Assembly (NCBI GenBank): GCA_030634675.1
Contig: DAOWAH010000110.1
Span: forward strand, 1-6,126
Direction of reading: 5' to 3'
Origin: Fidelibacterota bacterium
GTDB lineage: Bacteria; Marinisomatota; Marinisomatia; Marinisomatales; TCS56
Length of the DNA: 6,126 nt
Made by a program: the position numbers and the translations under genes. How positions within the stretch are numbered: the first letter of the stretch is position 1; the number at the start of each line of letters is the position of its first letter. The notes under the pieces are model-generated. The model saw only the letters and a list, made by a program, of their open reading frames with translations, made no database searches and had not been told where the DNA came from. Positions 2,701 through 5,925 of this stretch are shown here, piece after piece.

Positions 2701-3513
2701 ATGAAAGACAAGTTCAATCTACCCTGGCGGCTAATGGCCGCCACTCTGTATGGCCCACCCCGCGATGGTAAGGTCTACGGGGTAATTGATATTGATGTAA
2801 CCGCAATCGAGGAGTATATCAAAGAGCAACGCCGGGCCGGTAATAAATTAACCATGACCGCTTTTGTAATCTGTGCCGTTGGAAGAACCCTCGCCAGGCA
2901 CCCGGAAGTCAACTGCCATATCCGTCGTGGTAAACTAATACCACGTGATTATATCGATGTTATGGTTTCGGTCGGTATCAAAGGCGGGGAAGAGATGGCC
3001 GCTGTCAGGATCAAAGATGCCCACCTGAAATCAGCTTCGCAAGTAGCCGAGGAAATCCGTAATCTGGCTTTTGACGTCCGTCAGGGACAGGAGGGTAAGA
3101 TAATGCGGAATAAATATACCCTTACCAAAATTCCCTGGCCGCTACGTGGCTGGATCTATAAACTGATGCGCTGGGTTGTTAATGATCTGGGAATCAACCT
3201 GGGTTTTATGGGATATACGGATTCGGCCTTCGGATCAATAGTGTTATCTAATATTGGGACGATTGGGTTGACCAACGGCTGGCCGGCCCTGCTGCCGGCC
3301 GCCAAGATTCCAGCGGTGGTAAATATGGGTAAATGTGAGCAAAAACCGGTTGTCCGTGGGAAAAAGATTGTGATTCGTAGAATACTTCCACTGGCAGCCA
3401 CATTTGATCATCGCATCGTGGACGGAATGCATGCCGGTAAAATGGCCCGGCTGATTACCCGGATACTAACTAATCCGGTGAATCTGGATCAAGTACCGGA
3501 AACTGAATCGTAG
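2701..3513 (+). CDS. Stand-alone 2-oxoacid dehydrogenase E2-type acyltransferase domain protein
   Basis: The 270-residue protein is a CAT-fold acyltransferase of the 2-oxoacid dehydrogenase E2 family. The signature is FDHRIVDG at residues 235-242: His237 is the expected catalytic histidine and Asp241 completes the HxxxD motif. Other family features are the N-terminal strand VYGVIDIDVTAIEEYI, the helix TAFVICAVGRTLARHPEVN, and FGSIVLSNIGTIGL before the active site. Known E2 enzymes carry lipoyl and subunit-binding domains ahead of this domain. Here they are absent, so this is the catalytic domain alone. Some bacteria have such free-standing proteins and their acyl substrate is generally not known; a classical pyruvate dehydrogenase role is not supported. 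No E1 or E3 gene is nearby. The start has no Shine-Dalgarno; Met12 (MAATLYGPPRDG) is an alternative, but the residues before it fit the family. The gene converges on the transporter gene. Confidence 0.85.
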   Translation: MKDKFNLPWRLMAATLYGPPRDGKVYGVIDIDVTAIEEYIKEQRRAGNKLTMTAFVICAVGRTLARHPEVNCHIRRGKLIPRDYIDVMVSVGIKGGEEMAAVRIKDAHLKSASQVAEEIRNLAFDVRQGQEGKIMRNKYTLTKIPWPLRGWIYKLMRWVVNDLGINLGFMGYTDSAFGSIVLSNIGTIGLTNGWPALLPAAKIPAVVNMGKCEQKPVVRGKKIVIRRILPLAATFDHRIVDGMHAGKMARLITRILTNPVNLDQVPETES

Positions 3514-5233: not shown

Positions 5234-5323
5234 GGAGGCGTGGCAGAGCGGTTGAATGCACCGGTCTTGAAAACCGGCAAGGGTTTACGCCCTTCAGAGG
5301 TTCGAATCCTCTCGCCTCCGCCA
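5234..5323 (+). tRNA. tRNA-Ser (anticodon UGA), CCA encoded
   Basis: It folds fully. The acceptor GGAGGCG (5234-5240) pairs with CGCCTCC (5313-5319). The anticodon stem CCGGT (5261-5265) pairs with ACCGG (5273-5277) around loop CTTGAAA, with anticodon TGA at 5268-5270, reading UCA serine codons. A long variable arm with the stem AAGGG/CCCTT is typical of serine tRNAs. The T-arm is AGAGG-TTCGAAT-CCTCT (5296-5312). The discriminator is G at 5320 and CCA is encoded at 5321-5323. These last three bases are also the first three of the 41-base hairpin repeat that follows with no spacer. The final 16 bases are duplicated exactly at 5707-5722, beyond the nuclease gene. Confidence 0.97.
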
Positions 5324-5361
5324 ACCTACGCCCCGGCTTACCGGGGACTTCGGTTGGCAGG
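5308..5361 (+). repeat. Left 54-base direct repeat: tRNA 3' end plus 41-base hairpin unit
   Basis: The first 16 bases are the 3' end of the tRNA-Ser. The 41-base unit (5321-5361) overlaps them at CCA. The unit has a terminal stem CCAACC (5321-5326) with GGTTGG (5352-5357) and an inner hairpin CCCCGG-CTTA-CCGGGG (5331-5346). The copy at 5707-5760 differs at two positions, one in the inner loop and one in the terminal stem. A short echo of a next unit (TCAACCTG, 5362-5369) follows. No T-run is present, so this is probably not a terminator. Confidence 0.9.
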
Positions 5362-5418
5362 TCAACCTGTTGTGAAAAGGAAATGAGACTAAACTGTTTT
5401 ATATAACATGTTTTTCAA

Positions 5419-5425
5419 AAGGAGG
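5419..5425 (+). promoter_or_regulatory. Shine-Dalgarno AAGGAGG deciding the GIY-YIG start
   Basis: The near-perfect AAGGAGG ends 9 bases before ATG 5435. The upstream ATG at 5408 lies before it and would place the ribosome site inside the gene, so 5435 is the likely start. Confidence 0.8.
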
Positions 5426-5434
5426 GCTTTTAGA

Positions 5435-5701
5435 ATGTGGTATGTGTATTGCATGGAAAACAAAGATAAGAATTATTTATATGTGGGTTCGACAAAAGAT
5501 CTTAAGCGAAGGGTCATGGAACATAATCATGGTTTGAGTAAATCAACTAAACCGCATCTACATTTACATTTGACAGCATATATTGCAGTCATTTCAGAAA
5601 AACGTGCACGAAATTTGGAGAAATATTTCAAAACTGGTTCAGGGAAAACTGTGTTGAAGAAACGAATTTTACAAAACGAAGTCCCGTTTAGCGGGACGTA
5701 G
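5435..5701 (+). CDS. Small single-domain GIY-YIG endonuclease
   Basis: The 88-residue protein is a complete minimal GIY-YIG nuclease domain. Motifs in order are YVY (3-5) as the GIY element, YVG (16-18) as the YIG element, the basic helix LKRRVMEHN (23-31) with Arg25/Arg26 and His30, and Glu62 in ARNLEKYFKTGSGKTVLKKR as the expected metal-binding catalytic glutamate. This size and the GSGK..LKKR tail fit the small UPF0213/YhbQ-like, URI-domain proteins. These are predicted DNA nucleases whose biological role is mostly unknown. There is no extra DNA-binding domain. A frame open from ATG 5408 would add nine residues, but the Shine-Dalgarno supports 5435. The gene lies between two direct repeats of the tRNA-Ser 3' end. 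Its last codons and stop come from an inverted copy of the repeat core (5677-5701). The context suggests a mobile cassette, possibly homing-like; this is inference. Confidence 0.88.
   Translation: MWYVYCMENKDKNYLYVGSTKDLKRRVMEHNHGLSKSTKPHLHLHLTAYIAVISEKRARNLEKYFKTGSGKTVLKKRILQNEVPFSGT
5677..5701 (-). repeat. Inverted copy of the 41-base repeat core, forming the 3' end of the GIY-YIG gene
   Basis: The plus strand reads CGAAGT, a GTCCCG/CGGGAC stem (5681-5686 with 5692-5697), then CGTAG. This has the same order as the reverse complement of the tRNA-side repeat (CGAAGT, CCCCGG stem, CGTAGG). The TAG stop of the nuclease gene is the TAG of this repeat. TTTT at 5702-5705 follows, so the hairpin might also act as a weak terminator. 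Confidence 0.6.
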
Positions 5702-5706
5702 TTTTG

Positions 5707-5760
5707 CCTCTCGCCTCCGCCAACCTACGCCCCGGCATACCGGGGACTTCGGTCGGCAGG
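5707..5760 (+). repeat. Right 54-base direct repeat: duplicated tRNA-Ser 3' end plus hairpin unit
   Basis: It matches 5308-5361 at 52 of 54 positions, exactly 399 bases downstream. Bases 5707-5722 repeat the 3' T-stem strand, acceptor strand, discriminator and CCA of tRNA-Ser, without the rest of the tRNA. Together with the left copy it brackets the GIY-YIG gene in the manner of attachment sites at a tRNA. Confidence 0.9.
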
Positions 5761-5925
5761 CCAACCCTGCACCAGTTGAATCGGGTCATTTGGTTAGCAG
5801 GCCAACCCTGCGCCAGTTGAATCGAGGACTTCGGGTGGCAGGCCATACCTACGTCCCGCATAGCGCGAACTTCGGGATGCTGGCCATCCCTGCGTCCCGT
5901 CGTGACAGGAACTTCGGCTGGTTGG
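5720..5925 (+). repeat. Tandem array of five 41-base hairpin units, increasingly degenerate
   Basis: Units are 5720-5760, 5761-5801, 5802-5842, 5843-5883 and 5884-5925 (lengths 41, 41, 41, 41, 42). Each starts CCAWMCC or CCATCCC and most end ACTTCGG...GG. The first is nearly identical to the tRNA-adjacent copy. Units two and three share CCAGTTGAATCG in place of the inner hairpin, suggesting they arose from one another. The last again has a CCCGTCGTGACAGG core like the copy at 2553. There are no unique spacers between units, so it is not a CRISPR array. No coding content is supported. Confidence 0.8.

Follow-up and report, generated by a model that had tools for sequence, protein, structure and literature searches.

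A minimal GIY-YIG nuclease element that probably homes into bacterial tRNA genes

A single-domain GIY-YIG nuclease gene flanked by paired hairpins, found at the 3′ end of a tRNA-Ser gene in a Fidelibacterota bacterium, almost certainly belongs to a mobile element of tRNA genes. The DNA analysed (the window) is a stretch of 6,126 nucleotides, contig DAOWAH010000110.1, read on the forward strand. Comparison with relatives indicates that this is probably a minimal site-specific element, 385 bp long plus a duplicated 14-bp block, which homes into tRNA genes, here that for tRNA-Ser. The nuclease is probably the mobility enzyme of the element, judging from its linkage to tRNA genes, intact motif, signs of selection and the lack of an integrase in the window’s element. 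If so, the element is among the smallest autonomous mobile elements in bacteria, and tRNA and tmRNA genes join the homing targets of free-standing nucleases. It would represent a way of occupying essential genes harmlessly.

The target gene is an intact tRNA-Ser(TGA) on the forward strand (5234–5323), called by ARAGORN and scoring 60.6 bits with Rfam. Its nucleotides 61–74 (5308–5321, forward strand), still within the tRNA, form the left copy of the duplicated block, and an orphan copy, identical at 14/14 positions, lies at 5707–5720 (forward strand). The repeat starts at nt 61, the first base after the T-loop, with AGAGGTTCGAAT before the boundary and CCTCTCGCCTCCGC after it. A sequence-only reading of the window had noticed 54-base repeats, and direct comparison of 5308–5361 with 5707–5760 confirmed them (52/54 identical; 95% over 60 nt). 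Its assignment of the left copy to a complete tRNA-Ser(TGA) and of the right copy to an orphan end also held, as the right copy lacks the tRNA 5′ part and ARAGORN calls only the tRNA at 5234–5323. The 399 bases given as the interval between the repeats are correct as their start-to-start spacing; the gap itself is 345 nt. The tRNA end is duplicated, as that reading stated, with the general unit being the 14-nt block of nt 61–74 and not the 54-nt repeat.

The hairpin that had been noticed within the repeat is present and is the left end of the element (F; 5318–5360, minus strand), with the tRNA end forming its outer stem and a GAA/GTA internal loop on the minus strand. Its partner, which had gone unreported, is the right terminal hairpin (R; 5672–5706, forward strand). 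R is built of outer stem, GAA, inner stem, loop, inner stem, GTA and outer stem, and is inverted relative to F. The TAG stop codon of the nuclease gene (5435–5701, forward strand) falls inside R, and the orphan tRNA end begins directly after it. Comparison places the element between tRNA nt 74 and the second copy of nt 61–74, so that the tRNA stays whole; under the duplication model its junctions would set it at 5322–5706 on the forward strand (385 bp). The GIY-YIG ORF is the sole gene-like ORF between the repeats, in agreement with the earlier statement that no integrase is present, and no transposase domain was found in the window’s element.

Traces of further copies are visible in the window. 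Behind the orphan end stands a second F-type hairpin (5717–5759, minus strand), probably left by an earlier occupant, followed by degenerate 41-nt units like the F hairpin (5760–5904; repeat family D1). A decayed copy at 2448–2592 consists of an R-type hairpin (2448–2475) and a tRNA-Ser-like 3′ end (CCCGCCCTCTCCGC) with an F-type hairpin (2550–2592); no tRNA was called beside it. The window also encodes, at 2701–3513, a 270-aa protein that matches 2-oxoacid dehydrogenase acyltransferases over their catalytic domain only (E = 7e-30).

The nuclease ORF encodes 97 aa from the ATG at 5408 or 88 aa from the ATG at 5435; the latter has AAGGAGGG upstream, and homologues P0001–P0007 start at the same place. 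The protein belongs to the GIY-YIG superfamily (Pfam PF01541, E = 1e-14), with the GIY, YIG, Arg and Glu motif positions present. Aligned with 37 of its 86 homologues (alignment A1), it shares with all of them Y5, Y16, G18, R26 and E62, invariant across the 38 sequences, among which presumably are the catalytic residues. Like the small UPF0213 GIY-YIG proteins, it has a single domain, and we know of no linkage of UPF0213 proteins to tRNA ends. The AlphaFold2 model is compact (pLDDT 87.9). By sequence and fold, the nearest solved structures are UPF0213 BH0048, Slx1 and I-TevI, joined by UvrC on sequence; the closest is UPF0213 (PDB 1zg2), with a sequence profile E-value of 7.3e-8 and the best Foldseek match (E = 1.8e-3). 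A separate DNA-binding domain is absent, which leaves site specificity unaccounted for and counts against the homing interpretation. The gene is mostly under purifying selection: dN/dS is 0.19 (0.050/0.256) between the window and its relative L001, and 0.05–0.21 in seven of 13 pairs, those with usable dS. Five further pairs were saturated, undefined or failed, and the close pair L002/L004, with dN of 0.015 and dS of 0, counts against the argument from selection.

Among the six of the 86 homologues listed with an organism name, four are from Marinimicrobia/Fidelibacterota. We scanned a collection of 84,980 species with two peptide patterns and kept the best 80 of 105 confirmed stretches, equal to 79 loci, mostly from metagenome-assembled genomes; with the window these make 80 places. 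The search for the same arrangement elsewhere, which the sequence-only reading had proposed, was successful: within this best 80 of 105, 74/80 places are at a tRNA or tmRNA gene, and in 70/80 a same-strand tRNA ends no more than 600 nt upstream of the nuclease. These 70 tRNAs (from the same best 80 of 105 stretches) comprise 63 for Ser (22 GCT, 17 GGA, 15 TGA and 9 CGA), 2 for Gln, 2 for Met and 1 each for Asn, Arg and Asp. Elsewhere in the same loci, an upstream tRNA was found at 32/5538 anchors (0.6%). Two loci lie at tmRNA (ssrA) genes, L026 and L057, and in the second an orphan tmRNA 3′ end follows the nuclease gene. Two places are of a five-prime type, with tRNA-Arg downstream, immediately in L079 and beyond another nuclease match in L074. 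At the remaining six, the contig begins 1–259 nt upstream of the nuclease and no tRNA is visible.

Of the tree tips, 71 carry a phylum name, and 13 such names are represented among them; within the phylum of L001, 33/245 genomes match at E ≤ 1e-20, 13 of these at E < 1e-30. A nuclease tree was built from 77 of the 80 rows (leaving out L035, L061 and L071); it has few alignment columns, and 10/74 inner branches are starred. Isoacceptor changes on this tree number 27 over 61 tips (200 shuffles: mean 32.8, range 28–37), and phylum changes 27 over 71 tips (shuffles: mean 41.0, minimum 37). Both counts are below every shuffle, suggesting some inherited signal besides much switching, with the counts themselves inflated by poor tree resolution. 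A viral origin was set aside, as the viral collection contains a single relative.

The duplicated block could be tested in 72 of the 80 places, the other eight comprising six lacking upstream sequence and two of the five-prime type. An orphan block corresponding to tRNA nt 61–74 was found beyond the nuclease gene, at ≥12/14 identity, in 49/72 testable loci from the best 80 of 105 stretches: 25 exact, 20 with one difference and 4 with two, 38 being identical over nt 62–74. These 49/72 loci show a target-site duplication of the kind looked for in DNA transposons. Shuffled blocks often reach ≥12/14 because the block is C/T-rich, and did so at least once per 200 trials in 38/72 loci; the orphan block beat all 200 shuffled blocks in 40/49. 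The other 23/72 lack a block at this threshold, which counts against the duplication model; they include three with shorter ends (L016, L027 and L042) and one at a contig end (L056). No orphan end was found in L052, L067, L072, L073, L077 and L078.

In 45 loci, the nearest nuclease relative has a differing block. There, the orphan is closer to its own tRNA than the relative’s block is in 40, tied with it in 5 and farther in none, and the likeness holds with unusual T-stems (L007, L030, L047 and L076) and for tmRNA (L057). The orphan end is under no evident constraint and yet resembles its own tRNA, which argues for duplication of the target and not for a carried end. On this comparison, the block looks target-derived rather than carried. 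Gene conversion between the left and orphan copies is a possible alternative means of keeping them alike. Many loci have repeats longer than 14 nt, reaching 60 nt in the window and 135 nt in L039, lengths for which a plain 14-nt duplication could account only if there had been earlier occupants.

Under strict criteria, R hairpins were found at 37/80 gene ends and F hairpins at 36/72 tRNA ends, with 0 expected from shuffles; that only about half of the ends carry them counts against the homing interpretation. The strict finder requires GAAG...G[TC]A, and we repeated the right-end test with no loop sequence required. A two-stem hairpin lay within 3 nt of the orphan in 22/49 loci (0.25 expected), and 14 of the 22 have the GAA/GTA loop, with differing stems. 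F and R stand in inverted orientation, as terminal inverted structures of the type looked for in DNA transposons. More than 700 nt from nuclease genes, we counted five hairpins in 526,642 bp against 1.3 expected, a figure for the flanks of the loci and not for complete genomes. Genome-wide dispersal like that of REP/RAYT sequences was rejected, given the rarity of the hairpins in the flanks, where two of the five are from the decayed copy in the window. The distribution identifies F and R as ends of the element rather than genome-wide repeats. Some loci carry unusual hairpin arrangements: L014 has a tandem array of six R-type units with 63-nt spacing, from −405 to −51 relative to the nuclease start; L168 shows, by eye, several F-like units in tandem; and in L225 and L046 (Balneolota) an R hairpin appears by eye inside the orphan tRNA end, with only TCCGC after it, as if a separate insertion.

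Occupied and empty alleles at orthologous tRNA-Ser sites, as expected of homing elements, were found in three lineages, so that the comparison of related genomes proposed in the sequence-only reading revealed sites empty in some relatives and occupied in others. In Fodinibius, 12 genomes share an orthologous tRNA-Ser(GCT) gene, with a nuclease match within 860 nt in L110, L114 and L118 only and none in 9/12. By eye, the tRNA is followed by a hairpin-like end and a terminator in six of those without it (L111, L113, L115, L116, L117 and L121) and by both of these plus a decayed nuclease stub in L112, whereas L119 and L120 show neither the hairpin-like end nor the terminator. The strict finder detects an F hairpin in 4/12 of these loci (L112, L114, L115 and L117); hairpin-like ends in L110, L111, L113, L116, L118 and L121, and remnants in L129 and L133, were assigned by eye. 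In L118, hairpin, terminator and nuclease come one after another behind the intact tRNA, and a plain terminator stands behind the orphan end; this order would be expected if the orphan was the tRNA’s original end.

The second lineage, Marinimicrobia, has seven orthologous tRNA-Ser(GCT) loci whose upstream DNA is similar over about 512 nt, 4/7 lacking the nuclease: L168, L169 and L174 are occupied, L170, L171 and L172 have neither nuclease nor hairpin, and L173 has hairpins and a stub. The tRNA in L170 is immediately followed by a terminator similar to that behind the L169 orphan end. Third, in the genus of genome G009 (Rhodohalobacter sulfatireducens, locus L056; 28 genomes), two of 24 tRNA-Ser(GGA) loci have a nuclease, and 22/24 lack both the nuclease and the F hairpin. 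By eye, the left end in Fodinibius and Rhodohalobacter seems to carry a terminator that replaces the displaced native one.

Spread within genomes is also apparent. Single genomes carry copies at different tRNA genes: Ser CGA and GCT (L011/L012), Ser GCT and GGA (L034/L048) and Gln TTG and CTG (L037/L058). In G009, the left ends at tRNA-Ser(GCT) and tRNA-Ser(GGA) (L225/L198) are identical at 81/83 positions and the tRNA bodies differ; in Fodinibius genome G013, tRNA-Ser(GCT) and tRNA-Ser(GGA) are followed by the same 67 nt (L115/L124). L050 and the tRNA-Ser element L043 are sister copies from one genome; behind L050 comes a tRNA-Gln-like end, and its upstream side is lost at the contig end. The tRNA linkage of the relatives, the orphan blocks and the empty sites together support the earlier proposal of an element inserted in a tRNA 3′ end with the gene restored. 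That reading had named uniform occupancy, and GIY-YIG homologues unconnected to tRNA ends, as the results that would speak against it; what we found are empty sites and GIY-YIG relatives that do link to tRNA ends.

How the element moves is less certain, and we give about an even chance to a staggered cut plus copy-in. GIY-YIG enzymes cut DNA by hydrolysis, which makes homing with two nicks the simplest scheme. The enzyme would make one nick in an empty tRNA gene where the T-loop meets the T-stem (nt 60/61) and another, on the opposite strand, near the tRNA 3′ terminus (about nt 74/75). The 14-nt stagger would be filled in on both sides, and repair would copy the element in from another tRNA gene, leaving the target’s own 14 nt on both flanks. 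Such a scheme yields a target-derived duplication with no need for strand-transfer chemistry. The hairpins may be a recognition feature for the enzyme or for host repair, and longer repeats such as that in the window could arise by re-invasion of sites where a previous occupant had left its hairpin. The staggers produced by known GIY-YIG homing enzymes are short and not of 14 nt, which counts against the staggered-cut model. With an exact insertion point and hairpin ends to work from, the mechanism is open to direct testing.

It is unlikely, though worth weighing, that the element moves as a transposon would. In that case, either the GIY-YIG protein or a host enzyme working on the two hairpin ends would excise or copy the element and join it to a staggered cut in the tRNA gene, to give a true 14-bp target-site duplication without homology. 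A target-derived block, inverted hairpin ends with a conserved loop and the occupation of targets as unlike as Ser, Gln, Met and tmRNA genes would all fit. Against it, we know of no strand-transfer chemistry in GIY-YIG enzymes, the conserved target point suggests a homing habit, and many loci have longer repeats.

We consider it very improbable that the element is a satellite moved in trans by a tyrosine integrase coded elsewhere, with the tRNA 3′ end a carried att site and the nuclease a passenger. The T-loop crossover point and restored 3′ end do recall integrase islands. A carried block should follow the element, whereas here it follows the target (40/45, none against), which disfavours a carried attP-type tRNA end (5 ties), and the nuclease is retained, mostly under purifying selection. 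That the gene is merely an old immobile neighbour of tRNA genes, inherited vertically and often lost, is scarcely credible. In its favour, phylum and isoacceptor type each change 27 times on the nuclease tree, fewer than in any shuffle (minima 37 and 28, respectively), so that some of both signals is retained. Against it stand empty sites where the native terminator is all that follows the tRNA, the almost identical ends seen at two tRNA-Ser genes in a single genome, and the match of orphan ends to the local tRNA. A group I intron with a homing endonuclease was rejected, no intron RNA match having appeared in the window or in any of the 14 loci (out of 79) that were searched.

The element differs from the tRNA-targeting systems known to us. 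Genomic islands and phages that target tRNA genes use a tyrosine integrase, insert inside the tRNA gene, restore it and leave an orphan 3′ end. Here, in contrast, the element is about 0.4 kb with one nuclease gene, that in the window has no integrase, and the block is apparently not carried. The tRNA-targeting retrotransposons of Dictyostelium and yeast insert beside tRNA genes and not inside them. For these, tRNA genes are discussed as safe targets in compact genomes, in the part of the source drawn on here (PMC5006619). Penelope-like retroelements, as far as the sections concerned describe them, have a GIY-YIG endonuclease credited with insertion and target-site duplications of 8–10 bp in the cases covered (PMC3846280). 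They share with our element the GIY-YIG enzyme, target-site duplications and palindromes at repeat ends; in contrast, they are eukaryotic and have a reverse transcriptase, with no mention of tRNA targeting in those sections (PMC3846280).

Of the systems compared, the closest precedent is the mobile ORFs of fungal mitochondria, in Allomyces atp6 and in Glomus atp6, atp9, cox2 and nad3 (PMC3630166). As presented there, a free-standing endonuclease ORF (GIY-YIG in Glomus atp9) lies inside a conserved gene, the gene 3′ end is duplicated, the gene is whole, a second end lies beyond the ORF and insertion-free relatives exist (PMC3630166), all as in our element. The fungal ORFs, by the same account, bring in a foreign gene end, whereas here the duplicated 14 nt match the element’s own target (40/45, with 5 ties). 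Our element also differs from what is described of them in its bacterial chromosomes, its tRNA and tmRNA targets and its paired hairpin ends. No description of a bacterial tRNA element of this kind was found in the open-licence PMC literature.

We raise tentatively, while leaning against it, a broader reading in which these loci define a new class of prokaryotic DNA mobile element. Such a class would have elements of ~0.4 kb with a single-domain GIY-YIG nuclease as the only protein and no integrase, transposase or reverse transcriptase of their own, two inverted hairpins with GAA/GTA loops, one fixed point in tRNA/tmRNA genes, a target-derived 14-bp duplication, 13 named phyla and sister subfamilies for other tRNAs. 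The element gives a reason for small GIY-YIG genes beside tRNAs, for which databases offer no name beyond GIY-YIG nuclease family protein. Among 26 lower-scoring GIY-YIG loci (60–85 bits), 14 lie no more than 700 nt from a tRNA upstream or downstream (Ala, Leu, Val, Gly, Asn, Glu or Met), suggesting subfamilies with other targets.

These distant genes lie beside tRNAs for Ala (L105, L155, L162 and L164), Leu (L102 and L109), Val (L107), Gly (L108), Asn (L098) and Glu (L159). Orphan ends occur in L162 (tRNA-Ala) and L097 (5′ end of tRNA-Met). In the five-prime-type loci L074, L079 and L097, the tRNA 5′ end is repeated upstream of the nuclease and the intact tRNA (Arg or Met) lies downstream. 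L151, L154, L158 and L163 are GIY-YIG genes with no nearby tRNA, flanked by direct repeats of 36–127 nt and, in some cases, with hairpin-like sequence.
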